This document shows, piece after piece, positions 1-55,426 of a DNA stretch of 55,426 nt. Position numbers and translations under genes: made by a program. Position 1 is the first letter of the stretch, and each line of letters starts with the position of its first letter. The DNA lies in IMG/VR virus record IMGVR_UViG_3300045253_000025, positions 1-55,426 of that record; one strand, written 5' to 3'. The notes below the pieces were generated by a model that saw nothing but the letters and a program-made list of their open reading frames with translations, searched no databases and had not been told where the DNA came from. The stretch comes from a virus.

Positions 1-127
1 TCCCTTCGGCTTGGCTAGCTCAATCAATTCAACGATCCGGGGAGAGCAAGCTTTGGCTTCTTCCTTCGATGGCTCCCGAACGGTACGAGCTTGCAGATCG
101 AGCCAGGGAGCGCAAGCCAGGATGTTC
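1..127. repeat. Direct terminal overlap (left copy)
   Basis: These 127 bases are identical to 55300-55426. The sequence continues coherently through the join: the glycosylase reading frame at 55126-55426 runs on into 1-483. The window is therefore a closed circle cut at an arbitrary point. The exact 127-base length suggests assembler k-mer overlap rather than a packaged terminal repeat. Confidence 0.95.
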
Positions 128-16782: not shown

Positions 16783-19617
16783 CTATTGCACATTCCAATT
16801 CGTACCGTCCCAAACAAATTCCTTATAATCTCCCGCTGACATATTGACGGTCGTAACTGCTGATGCGTCGAAGATATTGTCGCTTCCAGCGCGAGAAATA
16901 ACCAGCGTGCCGCTGCCAGCGTGCTTCACACCAACCCAAGCTCCTGACGCTCCAGCCGGTAGTGTCCAGGTAGTTCCGCTGCCGGTGTAGACGTAGGGCG
17001 TGTTATTGGTAAGCGTAGCACTAGCAGTATTGATGCGTGAGATTGCGGCGCGAGCAGTGGACAGTGTTCCGCTGGTCGGCAGCGTTACATTGGTCGCACC
17101 CGTCGTTGTTAGCGTAAGAGCGTTCGCGCCGGAAGTCGTAAAGGCTGCTGCCGTCGTTATGTTGCCCCCAAGATCAATCGTCTTGTTGGCGTCGTTCAGC
17201 TTGAAATTCAGCGTGCGCTCGTCGTTATTGCTGGCGTCGGGAAATGCGAGGATGATGTTGAAGCCCGAACTGCAGCTAAACCCGGCAGACCCATCGACTG
17301 AGAAATTACCGCCAATGGCTAAATCACTCGCTACGGTCATTCCGCCATCGGCTGTGACAGCCCCATGCAGTGTAGATGTCCCAGTAACGTAAAGATTGCC
17401 ATCGGTCTTGATTGTGCTTGCGGCGGAGCGGTAGAGGTTGGCCGTAGCATCGCTGTCGGAGAATCGAATTTTGTTCGCTACGATCTCTTGCGCGCCATTG
17501 CCAAGCACGAGCCGGTCGCTGGCGTTGAGTTTTGCCAGAGCGATGTAGCCGTTACCGGCGAAGTTCAACTGTTTGAGAGCATCGCTGTTGTTAAGAGTAT
17601 TGACCAACGGGCCAGGCAAGAAAAACACACCACTCTGGAGCGTAGCATAGGTGCTGTTACCAGCCTCGTTCGTCCATGTGAATTGCGTAGCGGCAAACGT
17701 GCTACTAATAACGCCAGCTTCTGTACAGGACATGCCCAGTGCTCGTCGCTCTACGTTTGATGGGGTACGGAAAATTATGAATGCTTCGTCTTGGAAAACT
17801 CCAGGGCTTGTCTCGTAGTGATTCTCAAGCTGTACCCAAACACCGCTTTTCGTAATGTCCTTACTCGTACCGACATTCGTACCGATCTGTATAACGTGAT
17901 CCCCACGTGATGCCACTACGTTCGTGCCGACCGTTGATGTAATAGTAAATGGGAGTGAGCCGTCGCTGATACTCGTATGACCTTTAAAGAGATCAATTCC
18001 GCTACCGTCAGTAGTTCCGACTGTAATGAGTGAAAGAAAAGATGGACTCGCGGTTGTACGGATATCCTGAATAGCGTTTAGCACGCTACCGCTTGTGCTG
18101 AGGCTTGTTCCGATTGACGTAGTACCAGTTCCTCCATTAGCGGCAGGTAGCGTGCCGGTGACTCCGGTTGTAAGTGGTAAACCAGTACAGCTTGTCAATG
18201 TACCTGAAGATGGCGTCCCAAGAATGGGCGTCACAAGTGTAGGCGATGTAGCGAATACCACAGCACCACTACCCGTCTCGTTCGTAAGCAAAGTGGCTAG
18301 ATTGGCTGAAGATGGAGTTGCTAAAAATGCAGAAGCTCCAGAAGCCAGTCCACTAACGCCTGTACTAATTGGAAGTCCAGTGCAGTTAGTCAATGTGCCG
18401 GAAGAAGGAGTACCTAGAACTGGGGTAGTAAGAGTTGGAGAAGTCAGAGTCTTATTTGTTAGAGTTGCTGTACCGTCAATCGTATCAAAGCCCCCAGTAG
18501 CGTTGACGTTGTTTCCTAGAGCGGTTGCGACTCCTGTACCGAAAGAGGTAATCCCTGTTCCACCATTAGCGACAGGCAGAGTTCCTGTAATAGCAGAAGT
18601 CAACGAGATATTTGTAAGCGTATTGGATGATCCAGAGATTGTCTTACTTGTGAACGTCTGAACGGTAGAAAGATCAGCGATCGTTCCTGACGGGACTGTC
18701 TTTGTTCCCCAGGAGTCGATAGTCGATCCATTAGTAATCCCGTACCCAACAGCAGTCGTCGGGGTCGATCTGACTTGAGACCAAAGAACTCCGATCTGGG
18801 GACCGGGGCCGGAGGAGAAAGTTCCCGTTCGTGAAGGAGACTTCGAGACTTGCTCGTATATCCAGCGGCCTTGCTCCTTCTTCGCTCGATAGCGATAAAT
18901 AAAGCCGTCGCTCAAAACACCTTCGTATAAATCTTTCTCGACTCGAAACCATTGAATCCAGAAAGGCTGCTTAGGAGTAACCGGGTTTTCGACAACCGCC
19001 TCCGGTCTAACGACCGTATTTTCTGGAGAAGAAAGAGAGAACATCTTCTCGGATTCGGCTTGCGAAGCTCCGGTTGGGAATGGACCGATCCGCTTTTCGT
19101 AAGATGCGATCCAATCGGAAGCGATCTCCTGCTGCGCTTGGCGGAGATCGAGATCGCTGGAGCAGACTAGATCATGAAGCTTGTTCTCCAGCTTGTCTTT
19201 GAGCCTTGCTCCATACCGACCTGCATAGGACTGAGGCCAGAGATTCTTAAGATCGTTGGAACCTCCGAGTTCTAACGGGATTAGATGATCGACTTCGTAC
19301 TGAGACCGATCAGACCAAGGAATGCCGTAAGAGGCAAAGACTTTCTTTTTGAGTGATTCGGGGACGTTACGGACGCGAGCGGTATAGCCGGGACGGGAGA
19401 GGTCATCGACGCCAATCGTGGGGAAGTAAGCCCCTGGAGTTTTAGTAGGGTCGGGGAGGACTCCGGGAGTGGTGACGGATCGAGAATCGGTAGCAGGTCG
19501 GGAAACCGGGGACAGAGCAACGGACGATGAATCATTGATCCAACCGCCATCAGGCGCAGGGGAACAGCCTCCAACGAGGAAGATCGAAAGCAGGATTGGC
19601 AGGAGCCAGCGGTTCAT
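16783..19617 (-). CDS. Lipoprotein-signal + HNH-like + tail-fibre-repeat fusion
   Basis: 944 residues. Residues 1-18 are a lipoprotein signal (hydrophobic run then LVGGC, lipidated Cys 18). Residues ~75-170 hold an HNH-like part with VDHLIPLELGGSND (His 111) and NLWPQSY. From about residue 280 the protein becomes typical fibre sequence: repeats of LTNKTLTSPTLTTPVLG and SSGTLTNCTGLP, then trimeric beta segments to the end. The likely role is an adhesion fibre. A cleaved lipoprotein signal and a nuclease-like module on a fibre are unusual; the fibre part may have been captured. Base and codon style changes near 18,700. Confidence 0.65.
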   Translation of the reverse strand: MNRWLLPILLSIFLVGGCSPAPDGGWINDSSSVALSPVSRPATDSRSVTTPGVLPDPTKTPGAYFPTIGVDDLSRPGYTARVRNVPESLKKKVFASYGIPWSDRSQYEVDHLIPLELGGSNDLKNLWPQSYAGRYGARLKDKLENKLHDLVCSSDLDLRQAQQEIASDWIASYEKRIGPFPTGASQAESEKMFSLSSPENTVVRPEAVVENPVTPKQPFWIQWFRVEKDLYEGVLSDGFIYRYRAKKEQGRWIYEQVSKSPSRTGTFSSGPGPQIGVLWSQVRSTPTTAVGYGITNGSTIDSWGTKTVPSGTIADLSTVQTFTSKTISGSSNTLTNISLTSAITGTLPVANGGTGITSFGTGVATALGNNVNATGGFDTIDGTATLTNKTLTSPTLTTPVLGTPSSGTLTNCTGLPISTGVSGLASGASAFLATPSSANLATLLTNETGSGAVVFATSPTLVTPILGTPSSGTLTSCTGLPLTTGVTGTLPAANGGTGTTSIGTSLSTSGSVLNAIQDIRTTASPSFLSLITVGTTDGSGIDLFKGHTSISDGSLPFTITSTVGTNVVASRGDHVIQIGTNVGTSKDITKSGVWVQLENHYETSPGVFQDEAFIIFRTPSNVERRALGMSCTEAGVISSTFAATQFTWTNEAGNSTYATLQSGVFFLPGPLVNTLNNSDALKQLNFAGNGYIALAKLNASDRLVLGNGAQEIVANKIRFSDSDATANLYRSAASTIKTDGNLYVTGTSTLHGAVTADGGMTVASDLAIGGNFSVDGSAGFSCSSGFNIILAFPDASNNDERTLNFKLNDANKTIDLGGNITTAAAFTTSGANALTLTTTGATNVTLPTSGTLSTARAAISRINTASATLTNNTPYVYTGSGTTWTLPAGASGAWVGVKHAGSGTLVISRAGSDNIFDASAVTTVNMSAGDYKEFVWDGTNWNVQ
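19016..19035 (+). repeat. Dispersed motif, type B core, in lipoprotein-fibre gene
   Basis: GTATTTTCTGGAGAAGAAAG. Coding strand read as LSSPENT. Confidence 0.65.
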
Positions 19618-31663: not shown

Positions 31664-31675
31664 TTTTGAGACTTC
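31664..31675 (+). promoter_or_regulatory. Candidate operator 12-mer TTTTGAGACTTC
   Basis: Exact copy in the 45-base gap between terminase and glycosyltransferase genes. No good -35/-10 pair around it, so it may be a free regulator site. Confidence 0.4.
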
Positions 31676-33162
31676 TATCTACCCCAGACTCCAGGTATCG
31701 AAGAAGCTCCCCAAGCGGAAGGAACTGAATCAGAGGAGAGCGGGTTATCAGCAGAGCTATAGTTCGCTACTTCCAGGGCCGCATAAGCCAGCGTATCGAC
31801 GATATCGTCCTGCTGGCGGGGATGACCGATCCAGGCGAAGATTTCCGTCTCAGCGTCAGCCAGAGCCGAATCAGGCTGGGTAAATCGGTTGTCCGTGTTC
31901 TCGTGAATGTATTCCGGGAACCAGATTCTCCCGGCTTTCATCTGCACCATCGCGGGAGTCGCACGAGTAACCTTATCCGCTGCGCGTGGATTGAGACCGC
32001 GAATCGGAAGTCCCTTGCGTTGAGCGATCTGGAAGACTCCCAGATTCGCTCCATTGGATTCGATGGCAATGTAGTCTGGTCTCCAAAGCTGGTACGCTTC
32101 GTTGAGATGTGGAAAGATATCGGGAATCTCCTTTTGGAAGCGGACCATATCCCAAAAGATCAGATCGTTGTCGGGAGTGACGAACCACGTCGAGATGACC
32201 GTCCAGGACGGCTCGTCATTCTTGTAGACGGAAGCGCCTCCAGGCATCTCTCGAAGCGAAGCAGCGGGATCGACCGTCTGAAAGCATCTACAGGCGGCTC
32301 GGTGGATCGTCTTGCCGGTACGGCCAGGACCGAGATAGATGTAGTCGCCATGTAGGGAGTACCGCTTGACCCAATCGTACTTGAACCGACCAGCTTCCTG
32401 CACGTCCCAATTCCCGGCCAGCATTTGTTCCCTGGTTACGGGATCAAGTTCTTGCAAGGATTCGATGTAGCCTTCCTGATCGACGTGAGGGTTATCAGTG
32501 ACGAAGGAGGGAAGGTACAGACGGGAAGGATGAGTCCCTAAGAATTTCCCATTGACGTTTTTGATCTGGAACCGCTTCTTGAGCCAGCCGGAAGTAGCAG
32601 GGTCATTTCTCTTAGGCGGATTGGAAGCGCATCGCATCCGAAGCGGAGCGTTGATCTCGTTCCGCCTCCGCAAGCGAGTGAACAGGTACAGGTAGTCTTG
32701 CTCGTTGAAGTGTGACACCTCATCGAAGCCGACGTACTGGAACTCGGAGGAGTCGTATCGTGCATAGACATTGAAGTCTCCTAAGTAGCCGAACTGGAGG
32801 GAAGCTCCAGAGGGAAACGTAAAGCGGTTGTCTTGAGGGCTGAACTTTGCGTCGGTATCAGCAAGCCAAGTCAGAGCAACATTGAAGATCGAGGAGGACA
32901 TCTTCCCAGCGGTTAGCTCAGTACGGAAGATGATCGCGGAGTAACCTGGGACATCAACGTATTGCAAAGCGCCCATCAGGAGCCAGATCGACTTGCCTCC
33001 GCCAGCGGCTCCTCCAAATAGAATCTCTCGATTGGGGAGTGTCAGTCCGACGAGTTGCTTCGATGTCGGCTCGTAGGGGATATACTTCGTCCACTTAAGC
33101 GAGAAGCGATCCCGGAAGGATGAGAGCGATACGTTAAGAGGAGTAGAAGCGGCTCGGATCAT
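31675..33162 (-). CDS. terL: Terminase large subunit
   Basis: 495 residues. Walker A FGGAAGGGKSIWL at ~49-61, Walker B VGFDEVSHF at ~144-152, and the C-terminal RNase H-like nuclease with DYIAIESNGANLGV and late acidic DAETEIFAWIGHPRQQDDIVDTLAY. Length and order fit TerL of tailed phages. Motor and nuclease for DNA packaging. The small subunit lies ~5 kb upstream, separated by unrelated genes. Confidence 0.9.
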   Translation of the reverse strand: MIRAASTPLNVSLSSFRDRFSLKWTKYIPYEPTSKQLVGLTLPNREILFGGAAGGGKSIWLLMGALQYVDVPGYSAIIFRTELTAGKMSSSIFNVALTWLADTDAKFSPQDNRFTFPSGASLQFGYLGDFNVYARYDSSEFQYVGFDEVSHFNEQDYLYLFTRLRRRNEINAPLRMRCASNPPKRNDPATSGWLKKRFQIKNVNGKFLGTHPSRLYLPSFVTDNPHVDQEGYIESLQELDPVTREQMLAGNWDVQEAGRFKYDWVKRYSLHGDYIYLGPGRTGKTIHRAACRCFQTVDPAASLREMPGGASVYKNDEPSWTVISTWFVTPDNDLIFWDMVRFQKEIPDIFPHLNEAYQLWRPDYIAIESNGANLGVFQIAQRKGLPIRGLNPRAADKVTRATPAMVQMKAGRIWFPEYIHENTDNRFTQPDSALADAETEIFAWIGHPRQQDDIVDTLAYAALEVANYSSADNPLSSDSVPSAWGASSIPGVWGR

Positions 33163-37603: not shown

Positions 37604-38275
37604 TTATTCTCCTTCCTCAAGAATCTCCTCATCCTGAATTTCATTCACCTGCTTATTTTTCTGAAAAGAAAGAGCCAGGGCTTTACCCGCTTCCGTCATC
37701 TGTACCAAACCTAACTCCTCCATCACCCCTAACGCTTCCAGGATCGTCTCATCGGCTGGAATCACTTTCCCAGCTACGATCATCTGACCATTGACTTCGA
37801 TCGGATTCTCCCCGCCTTCGATCACATGCTCAATCTTCTCCGAATCCCATCCTGGTTCGTTGACCTTCGAGCGATGCTTAACGCGAAGGAACGTCGTGGG
37901 ATTCGTTTTCTTAACTTCGATCTCCGCCGTCAAGCGAGCAATCGCCGTTGCACGTCGTACATCCCGGTAGAAACGACTGTACGGAGATTCCTTATTGATT
38001 TGCGTCTCATCCCGTCCTCGATTCATCCATTCCGTAAATGTATCAGGGTGTACACCCATACAGGAAGCCGCTACATGGTCCCACGCGCCTGCTCGGATGT
38101 AGCCTAGCATCCTCGTATAAATTTCTTCCGGCATCAATTCCAGCGTAGGGCGTCTGCCATTCGATTTCCGCATTACGGAAACGGGACCGGAAGGCAATTC
38201 GTACTCCGGCGAATCCTGCTTAGCCGGTCGAGAGACGGGCTTCGATCGAGATCGCTTATTTTGAGACTTACGCAT
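37604..38275 (-). CDS. terS: Terminase small subunit
   Basis: 223 residues, with a basic N-terminus (MRKSQNKRSRSKPVSRP). It then has an HTH-like part: YIRAGAWDHVAASCMGVHPDTFTEWMNRG, typical of the DNA-binding domain of TerS, and YSRFYRDVRRATAIARLTAE with KKTNPTTFLRVKHRS. The acidic C-terminus would bind TerL. TerS recognises the packaging site. The promoter at 38282-38310 would start transcription almost at the ATG. A dispersed motif lies at 37653-37674. Confidence 0.75.
   Translation of the reverse strand: MRKSQNKRSRSKPVSRPAKQDSPEYELPSGPVSVMRKSNGRRPTLELMPEEIYTRMLGYIRAGAWDHVAASCMGVHPDTFTEWMNRGRDETQINKESPYSRFYRDVRRATAIARLTAEIEVKKTNPTTFLRVKHRSKVNEPGWDSEKIEHVIEGGENPIEVNGQMIVAGKVIPADETILEALGVMEELGLVQMTEAGKALALSFQKNKQVNEIQDEEILEEGE
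37653..37674 (+). repeat. Dispersed motif, type B core, in terS
   Basis: TTATTTTTCTGAAAAGAAAG. On the coding strand it spans part of SFQKNKQ. The hairpin part is absent. Confidence 0.6.
38259..38270 (+). promoter_or_regulatory. Candidate operator 12-mer (near copy)
   Basis: TTTTGAGACTTA, one mismatch, on the plus strand inside the first codons of terS and just downstream of its promoter. A bound protein there would block transcription. Confidence 0.4.
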
Positions 38276-38562: not shown

Positions 38563-39186
38563 TCATTTACTCCTGATTAGAGTTACCTTGTCGAGATTCA
38601 ATCCACCATCCTTACTCGATCGCTCCTTCTTCCGGCCTGCTCGATCCAGCTTCCCCTCAATCTCCGCATACGTCCGGGAGGAGACTTCCATGACAGAGAA
38701 GGTACGCTTCCGGGAAGGCTTATCCTGAGACTCATCACGGAGATCATTGAGCATCGCTTCCGTCGCTTCATTCGTCTCGTCCACGAGCTTCCCAATCCGC
38801 TGGTCTTCTTCCTCGATCAATGCAGCTAGCTTGATGTTATCCGCTCGTGCTAGCTCTCCCAGGGGATCGAGCGTCAAAACCAGGCTTCGCTCCTGGTCTA
38901 CTGTCCAGCGTCCGGTAATAACGGGGACAATCGCTTCAGGATCAAGCCCCTTACGAGCATGGCCGTCTATCAGGCGATTAGTCGTCAGATTGTAGAGCAA
39001 GGCTCCAGCCCAGCCATTGCGTCTAATCCCGTCCCTCAATGCGTTAAGCTGCTTAGATGGGTGAGTTTTCCAGTTCTGGGGATGATCGGTAAGAGAGGCA
39101 GCTTTGACCCAGACCAGGGACTCGATCCCAGGCATCCCTTCTGGTCGGGGAAAGACCTCCAGTCGTGGCTTCCTTACCTTCCCCAT
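38563..39186 (-). CDS. ParB-like domain protein
   Basis: 207 residues. SLVWVKAASLTDHPQNWKTH, then DGIRRNGWAGALLYNLTTNRLIDGHARKG follows the ParB/Srx N-terminal fold with its G-H-x-R motif. ParB-type proteins in phages are often methylation- or nuclease-linked, or pair with terminases. DNA binding and a CTPase or nuclease activity are possible. It lies before the terminases. Confidence 0.65.
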   Translation of the reverse strand: MGKVRKPRLEVFPRPEGMPGIESLVWVKAASLTDHPQNWKTHPSKQLNALRDGIRRNGWAGALLYNLTTNRLIDGHARKGLDPEAIVPVITGRWTVDQERSLVLTLDPLGELARADNIKLAALIEEEDQRIGKLVDETNEATEAMLNDLRDESQDKPSRKRTFSVMEVSSRTYAEIEGKLDRAGRKKERSSKDGGLNLDKVTLIRSK

Positions 39187-40408: not shown

Positions 40409-40586
40409 CGGCCAGAATCCCTTTAGCCAGCGTAAGAACCGTCTCCATGACAGACGCATGAATTAAATCCGCTGGAGGAGGGGCCGCGACACCCTTTCCC
40501 CCAGCGGCAGAGAAAAGACTAGTGGAAAACTGCCGTTGCTCTTGTTCGGCCAAGGATGCCGGTATGGACTCGTACCTTTGAAGCAC
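40371..40586 (-). CDS. Possible overlapping short gene
   Basis: 71 residues (MLQRYESIPASLAEQEQRQF then STSLFSAAGGKGVAAPPPADLIHASVMETVLTLAKGI). It fills the space between neighbouring genes but overlaps both (68 and 38 bases) and has no clear ribosome site. Weak call. Confidence 0.3.
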   Translation of the reverse strand: MLQRYESIPASLAEQEQRQFSTSLFSAAGGKGVAAPPPADLIHASVMETVLTLAKGILADGHHHRTSADSA

Positions 40587-40938
40587 CCTGAGCGGAGAAG
40601 CTAAAGCTACCCCCGGAGCTACTGAATGATCTTGATCCCCCAGAGGAGAAGACTACGAACGAAGGATTCGCATAAAGTACCGGCTGACCGACGATTGCAA
40701 ACGATTGACCTACGAAAGCCTGATTCGAGCAGGAGCAACCGCCATCAAACGTCTGGAACGACTGGAAGCCGACAGCAGGACCGCAAGCCATCACTGGCGA
40801 AGCCAGAGCCAGGACCGTCAGACCGACCAGCAAGACGGCGCAGACCTTGGCGGCATGGTGCAAAACGTGATGAGCGTGATGGTGAAACAAATGGAAGCAA
40901 ATGGCAAAGAACGACAGAAGTGAGGCGAAGCGATACAT
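40519..40938 (-). CDS. Membrane or exported His- and Ser-rich protein
   Basis: 139 residues. Hydrophobic His-rich start (MYRFASLLSFFAICFHLFHH), a membrane segment (VCAVLLVGLTVLALASPVMA), then C-containing GGCSCSNQAF and a Ser/Gly/Phe-rich tail. VMAC could be a signal-cleavage or lipobox-like site. It ends the cytochrome operon, so a role in the envelope is likely. Unknown family. Confidence 0.5.
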   Translation of the reverse strand: MYRFASLLSFFAICFHLFHHHAHHVLHHAAKVCAVLLVGLTVLALASPVMACGPAVGFQSFQTFDGGCSCSNQAFVGQSFAIVGQPVLYANPSFVVFSSGGSRSFSSSGGSFSFSAQGASKVRVHTGILGRTRATAVFH

Positions 40939-40979: not shown

Positions 40980-42053
40980 TCAGCCACCAAGTATCCTAGC
41001 AATCAAAGCGGATTTTTCCAATCCCGATAATTCCCCGCCGTTCTTAGGCATATGCCTAGCTGGATCATGGGAGTTGATCCGATCTTGAACCTTACCGGCA
41101 ATATCTCTCCGCTCATCAGGAGCAAACGTATCAATCGCCAGGAAATTGAGATCACCTTTCGGCTTCTCGTTCCCGTGACAGTTAGCACATTTGTTGTTGA
41201 TGACTACTTGGCCTAATAACTGTTGATTGCGGTTAAGAGTTCGAGACTGTGGGTTGACTGGAGCCGGAGGGGGCTGAGACGGGTTATCCTGGTATCCCTG
41301 ATCCGGTTGCTGATTCTGCTGCGGTTGCTCGGCAGGCTGTTGCTGAGGAATCGGTGGCGGAGTAATGATCGTCTTGCGATTAAGTGATGGCTCCGAATGA
41401 CTCATCCTGATTTCCGACTGAGCCGGATAGGCTGCTGAGACGGCAGAGACATAACCATCAGCAACGGCTCTAACGGTAGCGATCCTTTCATTAGACCCTT
41501 GCTCCTGCGAGGCGAGAGCTTGCGCGCCTCCCAGAGCGGCGGAGTGCAGGTTATCGACGCGACCAATCGCTCGGAAATATTCATGAACGGCGAGATTGTA
41601 ATCGGGCGTAGCGGCTGGATACGAAGCAAGGCCGTAAGCGGTACTCCCGATCTGAACTCCGGGGAAGGCTTGCGAGATGTAAGTCAGAGTATCCGTGACG
41701 GCTCCAGTATAACCGTTGGCATAATTCCCGTTTCCGTAGTTGTACCCATTAGCGGCTTTGATTCCTAATGAACGGAGCAAGTCTAAGCGATCGGCTCTCC
41801 GTTCCCGCTGCTCCGCGAAGCGGAGTACATCCTTCTCGAACGAGTCCGACTCGACATTGATCCGTGAGTCGATCCGCTGGAGTTGGGTGTAACACCAATC
41901 CCCATAGCAATTACGGTAAGCACGATACAACCAAGAACCATTATCAGTGTCGTAGCGATAGAGATTATTACCGAGAGGAGTCCAGTCGTTTGCATAGATC
42001 GTCCCTCCAATCGAAAGCGTGAGCAGAGCCAGAGCCAACAGAATCCTTTTCAT
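40980..42053 (-). CDS. Exported cytochrome c-like protein
   Basis: 357 residues. Residues 1-21 are a clear signal peptide (MKRILLALALLTLSIGGTIYA). The centre is Tyr/Asn/Gln-rich with a Pro/Gln linker (PPPIPQQQPAEQPQQNQQ). The C-terminal ~70 residues are a c-type cytochrome: CANCH at residues 289-293, then KGDL and a possible axial Met at about 335 (RHMPK). This looks like the small haem domain of planctomycete-type PSD1 proteins. If haem is attached, it acts outside the cytoplasm using the host's cytochrome maturation system. ATGA overlap with the next upstream gene. Confidence 0.8.
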   Translation of the reverse strand: MKRILLALALLTLSIGGTIYANDWTPLGNNLYRYDTDNGSWLYRAYRNCYGDWCYTQLQRIDSRINVESDSFEKDVLRFAEQRERRADRLDLLRSLGIKAANGYNYGNGNYANGYTGAVTDTLTYISQAFPGVQIGSTAYGLASYPAATPDYNLAVHEYFRAIGRVDNLHSAALGGAQALASQEQGSNERIATVRAVADGYVSAVSAAYPAQSEIRMSHSEPSLNRKTIITPPPIPQQQPAEQPQQNQQPDQGYQDNPSQPPPAPVNPQSRTLNRNQQLLGQVVINNKCANCHGNEKPKGDLNFLAIDTFAPDERRDIAGKVQDRINSHDPARHMPKNGGELSGLEKSALIARILGG

Positions 42054-43996
42054 TTTTGTACCTCGTCGGGGAATAAGCCTTTGACCTTACTAGCTGCTGC
42101 CCAATCACCTTGTCGATGGCGATTGTTCCAAAGCAGATCGTTCGGCTTTAATTTGCCGGAGGAGGCTAATTCTTGCAAGTCCGCGTAAGTAAGCGGTCCT
42201 CGCTGGCGAGTTGTACCCTCTGTGATGTACCACCATTTCGGCTCGTTCTTATCCGATTCGAGAGGTTTTACATCCGACTTATCGGGACTCTCAAAATCAG
42301 GGATTACGATCTCATCGGTAGAGGGTCGAGGAGACGTAACCGATTGCGGGAGTTCGATTTTCGTCGGATTCATCTCAACAGTAGGCTTGGGCTTGTCTAC
42401 CAGCTTAGGCTTGATGATTCCCAGCGTTGGCATCACAAGGGACTGGAGAGCAGGGTAGAGCGGCTCGAACTGACGACGAGTGATTTTGAGACTCTTCTTG
42501 TCGGCTCCCTTCGGCCAGTCCCATCTCTTCTCTTCGACTAACCATTTCACCATCGGATCAGCGGGAGTCAGAAGCAAGGCAATACGAGCATCTGTTGCTA
42601 TAAGATTTCCCTGGTTGGGAGCAGGTAAAATCTTCGTCAGGACTGCAATCGGGTCTCCGTCAGGATCAACCCCTAGCTCATCACAAGCGGAAGCAGCATC
42701 AAGATATTTGTACTCGTAATTGTTGTAGGCTAATGTCATCGCCTCGCAGACATCTTTGGCCGTGAGTCCACCAGTGACGAAGGTAAACGTATCGAAGGAA
42801 TCTCTTGCATCTCCGAGTACCTTATCGAGTTGAGACTGGCGAGCGCCATAGAGAAACTGGATTTGGCGGATTGCCTCGAATTGCTTTTGATCGTTATTGA
42901 TCGTGACATCGCCTAGGACGCGAAGACGACCATCGAGCAGTTGCTTGACCTGATTCGTTGCTGGTTGCCAGAGACCGTTAGGACCGTGACAACGGATGCA
43001 GGAGATCATCGGTTGAAGACGATCTGTAAACGGTTCTGGAATTAAACTATCTCTAACCAGATTCGGAGGAGCTTCCGAAACGAGGATTCCATCCCCATTC
43101 CAAAGTGTACATTCGATGGCTCCATTGCGAAGCTTGGCGAGAGATTCCTGTCCTTGGGATTTGGAATTGCGTAGGGAGAGGAAAGCGTCAAATCCGGGAT
43201 CGGTCTGATCGTCGAAGATGTCTTGCGTCACGACGACGATCGACGGACCTTCGGAGGGAGGAACGTCGGAAGATTCGTACATCTCGATGCCACGAGCCTT
43301 GCCAGTGACTTTCGAGATCGTAACTAGACGGTTGAAGGAGTTATGCTGGCGAATCCGTTCCAGTGGAACTCCTCGCTCCGCCAAGTAGTCGGCAAGCTTC
43401 GTCTTGCCAGGAACCAGACCACGGAAGGCATAGTAAGAGCCGCCATCGGCGGAAGTTCCTCCCTGCTTGATAAGCCAATCGTAGCGGTAGCAGAGACCGA
43501 CCGGGAAAGCCGTATCGAGATGCGGAGCGGATTCGACGATCGTCTTTTTGGATTTGGAATCAGTTTGAGAGATGTAGAAGTAGGGGTCTTTTTCTGAAAG
43601 AGAATCCCATATCCGCATTTGCTCCTTGACTTGCTCGATCGTGTCTCCATACCGCCAACCTTCGACCCGTATCAAAGCTCCTCCAGCGACTAGCGGCGGT
43701 TGGACAGGGACGGAGGAGCGATTGACTACGGAGTTGAGGAATAACGTAACAGCAGCGTAGGTCTGCTTGGATGAGTCTCGCAGCCAGACGTAGCGGACAG
43801 AAGGCTGGAGCAATGGAGAGATCGTCTCCAGATCGGCTAAGCAGAGAGTAGCGGCGGTTGCCGGAACACGAGGAGGCGGTTTGAGGACCGGCATCGGATT
43901 AGGATGCTGGATAGGCGGGAGATTCGATGGGCCTTGAGCGGAAGCTGAGACAGCAACCAGCAGCAGCACGCAGGCCAGTATCCTATGGGCAGTCAT
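42050..43996 (-). CDS. Exported protein with CxxCH motif and GYF-like domain
   Basis: 648 residues. Signal peptide MTAHRILACVLLLVAVSASA (cleavage after ASA). CIRCH at 333-337 in ISCIRCHGPNGLWQP is a haem-binding motif as in c-type cytochromes. The C-terminal ~65 residues (WWYITEGTTRQRGPLTYADL and so on) are a GYF_2-type domain, which binds Pro-rich peptides. The Pro-rich linker of the neighbouring cytochrome is a possible partner. Coupled to it by ATGA. Such proteins are known from planctomycetes. In a phage this is unexpected. Confidence 0.75.
   Translation of the reverse strand: MTAHRILACVLLLVAVSASAQGPSNLPPIQHPNPMPVLKPPPRVPATAATLCLADLETISPLLQPSVRYVWLRDSSKQTYAAVTLFLNSVVNRSSVPVQPPLVAGGALIRVEGWRYGDTIEQVKEQMRIWDSLSEKDPYFYISQTDSKSKKTIVESAPHLDTAFPVGLCYRYDWLIKQGGTSADGGSYYAFRGLVPGKTKLADYLAERGVPLERIRQHNSFNRLVTISKVTGKARGIEMYESSDVPPSEGPSIVVVTQDIFDDQTDPGFDAFLSLRNSKSQGQESLAKLRNGAIECTLWNGDGILVSEAPPNLVRDSLIPEPFTDRLQPMISCIRCHGPNGLWQPATNQVKQLLDGRLRVLGDVTINNDQKQFEAIRQIQFLYGARQSQLDKVLGDARDSFDTFTFVTGGLTAKDVCEAMTLAYNNYEYKYLDAASACDELGVDPDGDPIAVLTKILPAPNQGNLIATDARIALLLTPADPMVKWLVEEKRWDWPKGADKKSLKITRRQFEPLYPALQSLVMPTLGIIKPKLVDKPKPTVEMNPTKIELPQSVTSPRPSTDEIVIPDFESPDKSDVKPLESDKNEPKWWYITEGTTRQRGPLTYADLQELASSGKLKPNDLLWNNRHRQGDWAAASKVKGLFPDEVQK
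43585..43605 (+). repeat. Dispersed motif, type B core (degenerate), in 648-residue gene
   Basis: GGTCTTTTTCTGAAAGAGAA. Coding strand read as SLSEKDP. Confidence 0.5.
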
Positions 43997-44034: not shown

Positions 44035-45015
44035 TTAACCGACTCCGAACGTCTCTCCGCCTATCGCCGGAACATTGACCCCCATTAGCTGACCCTTGAC
44101 TGCCGGGCTGTGCAGACCATGTGGACTCGGCGGAAGTGGTCCCGGAGGAACTGGACCAGGAGGAGGAACTGGAACCGGGATCGGAGGCGTAGGCGGGGCT
44201 GGAGGCGGCGGCAGGACTCCACCGGGGACCGCGTTGATCGCCCAGCAGTCCGAAGCCAGATTCGGATTCGTAGCGTAGTCGTAAGGAATCCAGCCGTAGC
44301 CGTTCTCGCCCCAGGGATGGCTGGGACCGTTCATCCAGTGATTGCGGAATTTGAACATCCCGCGCTTCTTGCTCCAGCCGACTAGCGATACGTCATGACC
44401 GCCAATCGGAGTCTCTCCGGGGGAGGGAACCGTCAAAACTCCGGTCGTCGAGGCTTGCTGGGATTCGATCTGACGAAAGACATCGAAGCCGAACAAGATC
44501 GGACGGCGGGTAGTGTACAGGATACCTTGCATCTGCGAGAGCGAGATTTGCACCGCATCGTAGGATACGATCCGGTTAGCGACAGCGGCGTCGAAGCAAG
44601 CTTGTGGCGGCTGCTGGCGGAACTTGACAGGATCGTCGGAGTAAGGCCAGAGCGATTCCTTGCAGAAGCCGTACTTGTTCAAAGCTTTGAGCATCGTCCG
44701 GTTATTGACCCCGGAGTCCTGCGGGATAGTTCCCATCAGCAGGCGGGTGATGTAATAGATGAACAAGCGGGATGCAGATTCGAGGACGAGACCCTGCTTG
44801 ATCTGATCTTCCATGATGCACTCATCAGCGGTATTAGGACCGCACGATCCGAGACCTCCCTGGTCTAACTGCGGAACCTTGTCGAAGTAATCCGAGACGG
44901 AGAGATCGAACTCATCCGGCAGAGCATCGGTAATCCTGCGAGGAGAGAACAGCTTGTGATCGCGGTCGAGAGTCTCCGGCTTTTGTCTTAGTAACCCGAA
45001 AGCATGGACTGCCAT
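44035..45015 (-). CDS. Papain-like (C1A) cysteine peptidase
   Basis: 326 residues from the ATG at 45015 behind a GAGGAG site. PQLDQGGLGSCGPN places the catalytic Cys at 58 with the preceding Gln of the oxyanion hole; GGHDVSLVGW gives His 207; FRNHWMNG the Asn at 225. These match the papain triad. A Pro-rich C-terminal linker (PPPPAPPTPPIPVPVPPPG) follows. No signal peptide is visible. Substrate unknown. A role in lysis, virion maturation or host-protein attack is possible. Confidence 0.8.
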   Translation of the reverse strand: MAVHAFGLLRQKPETLDRDHKLFSPRRITDALPDEFDLSVSDYFDKVPQLDQGGLGSCGPNTADECIMEDQIKQGLVLESASRLFIYYITRLLMGTIPQDSGVNNRTMLKALNKYGFCKESLWPYSDDPVKFRQQPPQACFDAAVANRIVSYDAVQISLSQMQGILYTTRRPILFGFDVFRQIESQQASTTGVLTVPSPGETPIGGHDVSLVGWSKKRGMFKFRNHWMNGPSHPWGENGYGWIPYDYATNPNLASDCWAINAVPGGVLPPPPAPPTPPIPVPVPPPGPVPPGPLPPSPHGLHSPAVKGQLMGVNVPAIGGETFGVG

Positions 45016-45377
45016 TGTCGAAGCTCCTCTAAGATTTTTGGTTCCAAGATATCCCAATCAACGCAAGGCTTACCATTTGGTCCGATCAGCGTCGGACAAC
45101 CTTCCGCCCGATCATCGACCAGCTTATCGTAATAAATCTTGCGAGCAAACCACCACCATTCCTTAGCGAAGTGAACTCCTCGATCCTTACAAAACTTTTC
45201 CGCCCACCATAGCAGCGGTCCTACTCGATTCGTCCAAAGTACAATTGTGGCTCCAGCAGCTACGAATTTCTTGATTGAGTCCGTCGCCTTCGTTCCCTTC
45301 GATCCTACAACCTCGACTTGAGAGAACGGGAAGACATAACAGGCTATCGTACAATCAAAATCGAGGGCGAGGATCAT
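44988..45377 (-). CDS. HAD-like hydrolase
   Basis: 129 residues. MILALDFDCTIA (the DxD motif with D6 and D8, the latter followed by C rather than the usual G), then TIVLWTNRVG (motif II with T/S), a later K (KDRG, KEWW) and VDDRAEG (acidic motif IV). Fits a small HAD family phosphatase. The usual second Asp plus Gly is changed, so the activity needs caution. It overlaps the peptidase start by 28 bases. Confidence 0.65.
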   Translation of the reverse strand: MILALDFDCTIACYVFPFSQVEVVGSKGTKATDSIKKFVAAGATIVLWTNRVGPLLWWAEKFCKDRGVHFAKEWWWFARKIYYDKLVDDRAEGCPTLIGPNGKPCVDWDILEPKILEELRQWQSMLSGY

Positions 45378-45381
45378 CGGA

Positions 45382-45858
45382 CTACTTCTTGTGCGCATGG
45401 CCTCCGTGACCGTGATCCGCTTTCTTGTGCGGAGCTTCTTCCTCGTCTTCGGCGTCCTTCCCCTTCTTCGCGTGAGCCGTCTCCGTGGCGGGAGTCGGGC
45501 CTGATCCGGCCAGCCCACCGAGGATCGCCAGGATCGCGTCAATGATCGGCTTGAACTGCTGATACAAAGCTAGCAGTTGCTTGAATACGTCGATCAGACC
45601 GGCACGATTGTACTCGCCTTCGATCTCCACTCCTTGCCGCTCGGCTTCACCAGCCGATAGACGGGCGGTGAGTGGGGTCAGGGCGTCAAGGTCTTGAGCG
45701 ATCGGCAGGAGCGTGAGTTCGATATCGGAGATCGCTTGCAGCTTCGCAGCGTAGCCGACAGCCGTTTGCAGCTTGCCGAAAGCAGCCTGGAACTGACCCA
45801 GGACAGCGGCGTCTTTCATCAAGATACGGAGTAGCTGGATGAAGGTGATCGTTCGCAT
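45382..45858 (-). CDS. Hypothetical protein with His-rich tail
   Basis: 158 residues from the ATG at 45858. Long helices (FIQLLRILMKDAAVLGQFQAAF, DVFKQLLALYQQFKPIIDAILAIL), then an acidic linker and KKADHGHGGHAHKK, a possible metal-binding end. First gene after the promoter at 45929-45957. No family recognised. Confidence 0.5.
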   Translation of the reverse strand: MRTITFIQLLRILMKDAAVLGQFQAAFGKLQTAVGYAAKLQAISDIELTLLPIAQDLDALTPLTARLSAGEAERQGVEIEGEYNRAGLIDVFKQLLALYQQFKPIIDAILAILGGLAGSGPTPATETAHAKKGKDAEDEEEAPHKKADHGHGGHAHKK

Positions 45859-45880
45859 GGATTTTTCCTCCTTCGAGAGT

Positions 45881-45910
45881 CGAATACTTCTTAGAAAACT
45901 CAGATAGGGG
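45881..45910 (-). repeat. Dispersed element type A (opposite orientation, degenerate)
   Basis: Plus strand CGAATACTTCTTAGAAAACT then CAGATAGGGG. Lies between the promoter at 45929 and the gene at 45858. Confidence 0.6.
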
Positions 45911-45928
45911 TAGTGACTCGCAAGGGTC

Positions 45929-45957
45929 AGGTTAGCCATTTTGAGAATTAGAGTCAA
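45929..45957 (-). promoter_or_regulatory. Sigma70-type promoter, leftward
   Basis: Minus strand: TTGACT (45957-45952), 17-base spacer, TAACCT (45934-45929). The spacer contains TCTCAAAA, part of the 12-mer in opposite orientation. Expected to drive the cargo block with peptidase and cytochromes. Confidence 0.65.
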
Positions 45958-55126: not shown

Positions 55127-55426
55127 CACAAAATCCTTTCTAAGAATCCTCGCAGCTTCAAGACGTTCCGCTTCCAGTCGAGGACCAAATCCTTGCGGGG
55201 GGAAGTCTCGTGCAGAAAATAAGCCGGGTGAGTGATCTCGATAGTCGGGAGATTCGTATCGGGACCGAACCGCTCCGCGACCCGGCCAACGTAAACGATT
55301 CCCTTCGGCTTGGCTAGCTCAATCAATTCAACGATCCGGGGAGAGCAAGCTTTGGCTTCTTCCTTCGATGGCTCCCGAACGGTACGAGCTTGCAGATCGA
55401 GCCAGGGAGCGCAAGCCAGGATGTTC
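55126..55426 (-). CDS. Uracil-DNA glycosylase-like, C-terminal part
   Basis: This continues the gene that begins at 483. The C-terminal part contains GIVYVGRVAERFGP and then THPAYFLHE. The latter fits the second active-site loop of uracil-DNA glycosylases (H-P-[AS]). Bases 55300-55426 repeat 1-127, so only the part down to 55126 is additional. The stop TGA at 55128-55126 overlaps the ATG of the next small membrane gene by one base, implying translational coupling. Confidence 0.85.
   Translation of the reverse strand, partial: NILACAPWLDLQARTVREPSKEEAKACSPRIVELIELAKPKGIVYVGRVAERFGPDTNLPTIEITHPAYFLHETSPRKDLVLDWKRNVLKLRGFLERIL
55300..55426. repeat. Direct terminal overlap (right copy)
   Basis: This is the second copy of the 127-base overlap. 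Removing it gives a circle of about 55,299 bp. It lies inside the uracil-DNA glycosylase gene, which would be an odd place for a natural genome end. Confidence 0.95.

Follow-up and report, generated by a model that had tools for sequence, protein, structure and literature searches.

An exported pair of putative haem c-type proteins is a conserved, protease-linked module in phages and prophages of planctomycetes

Two exported proteins with CxxCH motifs, designated A and B in this study, form a core module of planctomycete phages and are not stray respiratory cargo. Such cargo had been considered in the sequence-only reading of this DNA; the pair proved to be a fixed and syntenic component of these phages, next to genes for a protease and the terminase subunits. 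Judged by their sequences, A and B are a split and rearranged version of a dihaem protein family of the hosts. The fixed position fits a late envelope or lysis module better than a metabolic gene acquired by chance, and action of A and B in such a module is a reading which we regard as quite possible, based on comparison of the loci.

The pair was detected in the window, i.e. the whole stretch of 55,426 bp that was analysed, with the following features:

42050..43996, minus strand: gene A, exported protein of 648 aa whose single CxxCH is CIRCH at residues 333-337; distantly homologous to the C-terminal part of the host two-haem fusions
42986..43000, minus strand: CIRCH haem-attachment motif of A, kept in 26/26 phage A and 35/35 host homologues
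42074..42232, minus strand: GYF_2 domain of A, residues 589-641 (profile match, E 3.8e-9)
40980..42053, minus strand: gene B, exported protein of 357 aa with a Pro/Gln-rich linker and a C-terminal class I (PSCyt1-like) cytochrome c domain
41175..41189, minus strand: CANCH haem-attachment motif of B (residue 289 on), kept in 21/21 B proteins
41046..41051, minus strand: conserved Met335-Pro336 of B, the presumed distal haem ligand (MP in 21/21 B proteins)

The basic description given earlier was confirmed. The motifs begin at residue 333 (CIRCH, A) and residue 289 (CANCH, B), both N-termini carry a hydrophobic, signal-peptide-like segment according to hydropathy, and the two reading frames (42050-43996 and 40980-42053) share an ATGA overlap. 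When the residues were shuffled, a CxxCH arose by chance with P = 0.0007 (0.07%) for A and likewise for B. From these sequences we strongly infer that haem c is attached to both proteins.

A homology search had been proposed, and it upheld the cytochrome assignment of B in part only. PSCyt1 (PF07635) matched residues 289-338 of the window B with E 6e-4 and 20.8 bits, just below the cut-off of 22 bits, and a CBB3-type match was obtained with E 1.3e-3 (L119 B: E 1.7e-5, Pfam). Like PSCyt1 and other class I cytochromes c, B has its CxxCH near the start of the domain, a Met-Pro (29-43 residues beyond CxxCH in each of the 21 B proteins) and a C-terminal helix; unlike them, it scores below the curated cut-offs and has an unrelated exported N-terminal part attached.

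For A, GYF_2 was the only domain match in Pfam (36.6 bits, cut-off 25.8), which bears out the GYF-like C-terminal domain described before. This domain had also been taken as the part that holds the partner protein. Scans of four other phage A proteins (L112, L114, L119 and L146) did not detect it, and it is thus particular to the window A among those tested, so that GYF cannot explain the pairing of A and B and was ruled out as pairing device. Neither A nor B matched PHROGs, and NCBIfam gave nothing meaningful for them. AlphaFold2 modelled the window A fairly well (pLDDT 72, pTM 0.69) and the L119 A (L119:9404-10819; pLDDT 85, pTM 0.86) well, the latter as a globular, folded domain whose signal peptide is predicted to be cleaved. 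Foldseek detected no relative of either model in the PDB (best E 0.62 and 0.85, respectively), nor one of the L119 model among viral structures (best E 0.09). The A domain is therefore, as far as models go, a candidate for a new fold of a large host protein family without Pfam entry.

The occurrence of the pair in related contigs, for which a search had likewise been suggested, was established by profile-guided scans. A was detected in five further IMG/VR contigs (L111, L112, L113, L114 and L119), each time followed by B; this number is a lower bound, because scans of IMG/VR need exact short patterns. Single-sequence scans of IMG/VR and of the genomes found none, and a tblastn search with A and B gave no match among 50,697 phage and 72,556 plasmid records. 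Beside A and B, sharing among the six viral contigs is limited to DnaB (L112 and L114), a matrixin (L111, L114 and L119) and one weak match between L119 and the window.

The genome sets comprised the phylum to which the genome behind L020 (Singulisphaera) belongs and the class of genome G375. In 392 planctomycete genomes, the phage-A profile detected a single standalone A, located in prophage L146 of G375 together with a terminase (phrog_38, E 1.2e-70) and a portal (phrog_21, E 2.5e-31). The second search, in 398 genomes of the class of G375, showed a two-humped score distribution with 18 genomes at E ≤ 1.5e-61, whose frames mostly comprised 453-714 aa, and the fused host proteins from 8e-51 on. 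One additional genome with A came from a further search, and G544 (E 5e-83, frame of 863 aa) showed the same A-B-matrixin layout. Nineteen loci were fetched after the 398-genome search. Including the window, 26 phage-type A loci were obtained (the window, 5 viral contigs and 20 planctomycete genome loci). TerL and portal occur in ten of the 20 genome loci, i.e. in at least 10 prophages, and in L197 a portal lies about 15 kb off on the same contig. B with its CxxCH follows A in 21 of the 22 loci in which the contig continues. The exception is L146, where A (L146:5637-7088) has a C-terminal V/Q-rich tail resembling the one of gene C described below and B is missing, an apparent deletion fusion.

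The surroundings of the pair in the window comprise the following features:

1..127, no strand: left copy of the direct terminal repeat, which is exact and 127 bp long (right copy at 55300-55426)
31675..33162, minus strand: terminase large subunit (phrog_979, E 4e-62)
37604..38275, minus strand: terminase small subunit
38563..39186, minus strand: ParB-like protein; in the prophages it is likewise found downstream of the module
40519..40938, minus strand: gene C, immediately downstream of B; small F/V/S-rich exported protein
44035..45057, minus strand: papain-family (C1) protease gene directly upstream of A, without signal peptide (Pfam E 2.3e-5; PDB 3OIS cysteine protease, E 1.4e-30)
45382..45957, minus strand: small protein upstream of the protease, placed like the small S and T proteins of the prophages (by position only)

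The terminal repeat indicates that the contig is a complete or nearly complete genome, which also encodes portal, major head, DNA polymerase and primase. Two further genes may be mentioned: a phage DNA topoisomerase (1261-2169; phrog_6247, E 6e-110) and a lipoprotein-like phage protein of 944 aa (16783-19617), which begins with MNRWLLPILLSIFLVGGCSP and has no PHROG or NCBIfam match. Small exported proteins resembling C, whose sequence is of low complexity, come after B in L112, L114 and L119 as well and are its possible homologues. The N-terminus of C is rich in His (HHHAHHVLHH) and the protein encoded at 45382-45957 ends with HGHGGHAHKK; both are possibly metal- or haem-binding.

The claim that such layouts occur in planctomycete proteins also held, as a host family combining PSCyt1 with the A domain was found. 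Consensus lines of this type of exported planctomycete protein served as query only, and the conclusions rest on the real sequences fetched with it: 317 confirmed loci in genome contigs were retrieved and 80 kept. The host proteins, which occur in Planctomycetota and Poribacteria, consist of PSCyt1, the A domain, which has no name in Pfam, and a WD40, FGE-sulfatase, Peripla_BP_6 or TPR module; 78 of 81 host ORFs contain both CxxCH, 356-376 residues apart. Nothing is known of the functions of planctomycete-specific cytochromes (PMC5615132). A fused two-haem protein of poribacterial type (CARCH, CIGCH) was also seen at 8894-13171 of L110 (IMGVR_UViG_2740892559_000001), possibly a contig of a host that was wrongly filed under viruses.

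A profile of 46 real host proteins matched residues 41-520 of the window A with 21.7 bits in hmmsearch, and hhalign aligned the two over 439 columns, SCxxCH included (probability 96.3, E 1.6e-9). BLAST of A alone against 294 planctomycete genomes gave one chance match only. A profile of the host N-terminal cytochrome domains matched 6 of 6 viral B proteins and ranked the window B top among all ORFs of the window (E 7.6e-5; next ORF 0.23). Since both proteins match the host fusion, they correspond to the two haem parts of one host protein, present as two genes in reversed order. A is filed as a homologue and not as a member of the fusion family, because the PSCyt1 of the phages resides in the separate gene B.

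The host fusions and the phage pair share both haem domains, the SCxxCH, an alignment over the full length of the A domain and an invariant Asp and Glu at alignment columns 458 and 500 (D458, E500). They differ in that the phage domains are encoded separately, in reversed order and without a variable C-terminal module (GYF_2 being present in the window A only, among those tested), and in that His residues conserved in the hosts are lost from phage A. The His of the 'YH' motif is present in 32/35 hosts and in 0/25 phage A, 24 of which have 'YY' instead; that of 'ERH' in 35/35 hosts and 1/26 phage A; and that of 'FxHDGGE' in 33/35 hosts and 5/26 phage A. As the CxxCH is kept, the loss of these residues suggests that phage A retains the haem but not the complete active or ligand site of the host protein. 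In two trees the phage A proteins formed one side of a branch with a support of 100/100; their inner branching order is unsure due to long branches.

A protease gene, which belongs to one of three unrelated families, is next to the pair in 21 of 24 testable loci. Subtilases occupy this slot in 11 loci (L146 by Pfam, E 1.6e-58; the others by homology and the GTSM motif). Matrixins were found in 8 loci, by Pfam in L114, L119 and L111, by homology and the HExxHxxGxxH motif in L190, L194, L196 and L197, and by this motif alone in L195 (M10). Papains were found in 2 loci, in the window, where the gene stands in the slot taken by subtilases or matrixins in related phages, and in L188 (E 5e-39 to the window papain). 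A cysteine-protease-like protein in the slot of L192 and L193 was unconfirmed and left out of the count, and no protease was found near L112. In many loci the gap between A and the protease gene measures 7-60 bp, or the two genes overlap. Most proteases of the slot have no signal peptide; the matrixins of L194-L196 have an N-terminal membrane segment. Apart from L146, which lacks B, the pattern is departed from in L188 (7624-11485), where the papain gene lies between A and B, and in L111, where the matrixin comes after B. Upstream of the module in one phage (L119:4655-6538), a radical SAM/SPASM protein and an FkbM-type methyltransferase are encoded.

In ten prophages the module is followed by genes for a ParB-like protein, TerS, TerL and portal. 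Upstream of the protease, 11 loci encode a small protein (S) with one membrane segment and a coiled coil, and 9 loci a second protein (T) of about 135 aa; in L114 a protein with two membrane segments lies in this region. The S protein, NLTATAILGWYAWH..., occurs at L146:3717-4094, L183:11992-12366, L193:12714-13097 and others; S and T are both conserved and were unnamed in PHROGs where tested. Neither S nor T showed a significant holin match; it is possible that they are holins or accessory lysis proteins. No lipobox was present in the A and B proteins read.

The resemblance of this gene order to the lysis region of lambda is the reason why a late envelope or lysis role is favoured. A and B would be exported, receive their haem from the cytochrome c maturation machinery of the host and meet in the periplasm, where they might serve in the late module together with the neighbouring protease. 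As most lineages encode a protease without signal peptide, holin-like release would be needed, as for an endolysin; owing to the membrane segment of the three matrixins, this analogy is not uniform. A and B, on a scaffold taken from an envelope haem protein of the host, would then act on the host envelope in the final step of infection, in the place and at the time of spanins. The haem itself could be a redox trigger, an oxidant or a structural cross-link only. The full proposal, that planctomycete phages end infection by haem-dependent envelope breaching with an exported split dihaem pair stripped of the host His and an exchangeable protease in the place of endolysin and spanins, is speculative and rather doubtful. 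No description of such a module was found in the literature, and haem use of this kind was found for no other phage.

Lambda and lambdoid phages keep genes for lysogenic conversion, such as bor, between their lysis and terminase genes. A, B and C might accordingly be surface proteins by which a prophage alters the envelope of its host, resulting in conversion or superinfection exclusion. All three proteins are exported, TerL and portal mark at least 10 loci as prophages, and the location corresponds to the lambdoid one. However, the genes for A and the protease share a strand and are closely coupled, and the window phage, in which no integrase was noticed, has the pair too; this explanation is therefore not very likely.

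It is also unlikely that A and B are an auxiliary metabolic pair, which carries electrons in the periplasm and sustains respiration of the host or another oxidation during infection. The class I type domain of B with its Met-Pro distal ligand is the usual build of a carrier and the host homologues are dihaem proteins. In contrast, A shows beyond its CxxCH neither a conserved Met nor any other pattern of ligands that a simple carrier would have, and it has lost the host-conserved His, and the fixed place of the pair by protease and terminase genes in many divergent phages is unlike that of sporadic metabolic genes.

The protease gene is the most constant neighbour of the pair even though its family changes, and A and B could regulate the protease or be its substrates instead of acting on the envelope. 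This would require the same partner for three unrelated folds and would bring together exported proteins with proteases that mostly have no signal peptide, which makes it improbable. Even less probable is a virion or tail-associated role, in which A and B bind or reduce a component of the cell surface during entry. Structural and tape-measure genes do lie downstream of the pair in L113, and C is a small exported protein of low complexity, but signal peptides direct A and B out of the cytoplasm, the site of virion assembly, and in most loci the pair adjoins protease and terminase genes and not tail genes.

Chance motifs or a chimera of phage and host, compatible at first sight with a single contig and a B score just below the Pfam cut-off, can be dismissed, as the CxxCH is conserved in 26/26 A and 21/21 B proteins and the terminal repeat, the phage gene set and the recurrence of the pair in five other, independent viral contigs and in prophages exclude a chimera. 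Neither of the two findings named beforehand as overturning the reading, non-conserved motifs and a chimera, was borne out.

The module shows that conserved exported proteins of putative haem c type can be core genes of phages, and it links functionally dark planctomycete-specific cytochromes to phage infection. It provides a small, tractable two-gene version of the host dihaem family, and a protein domain (that of A) with a confident model and no solved relative. In addition, candidate lysis genes can be named for phages of a phylum whose lysis appears undescribed, as far as could be found.

In lambda, the genes are arranged in the order holin, endolysin, Rz/Rz1 spanins, terminase and portal. 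The module described here has a comparable order of small membrane protein, protease, an overlapping pair of genes for exported proteins, TerS, TerL and portal. It differs from the lambda-type cassette in that no holin is proven and in that the enzyme is a protease of changing family with a possible activity on the cell wall; furthermore, the exported pair consists of putative haem proteins and not of coiled-coil and lipoprotein spanins. Auxiliary metabolic genes of the tetrapyrrole type are known from aquatic phages, which carry genes of the Shemin pathway (PMC11480375). Both cases represent haem-related genes in phages; while the Shemin-type genes serve to make tetrapyrroles, A and B are exported proteins that most probably carry haem and belong to a syntenic core module.
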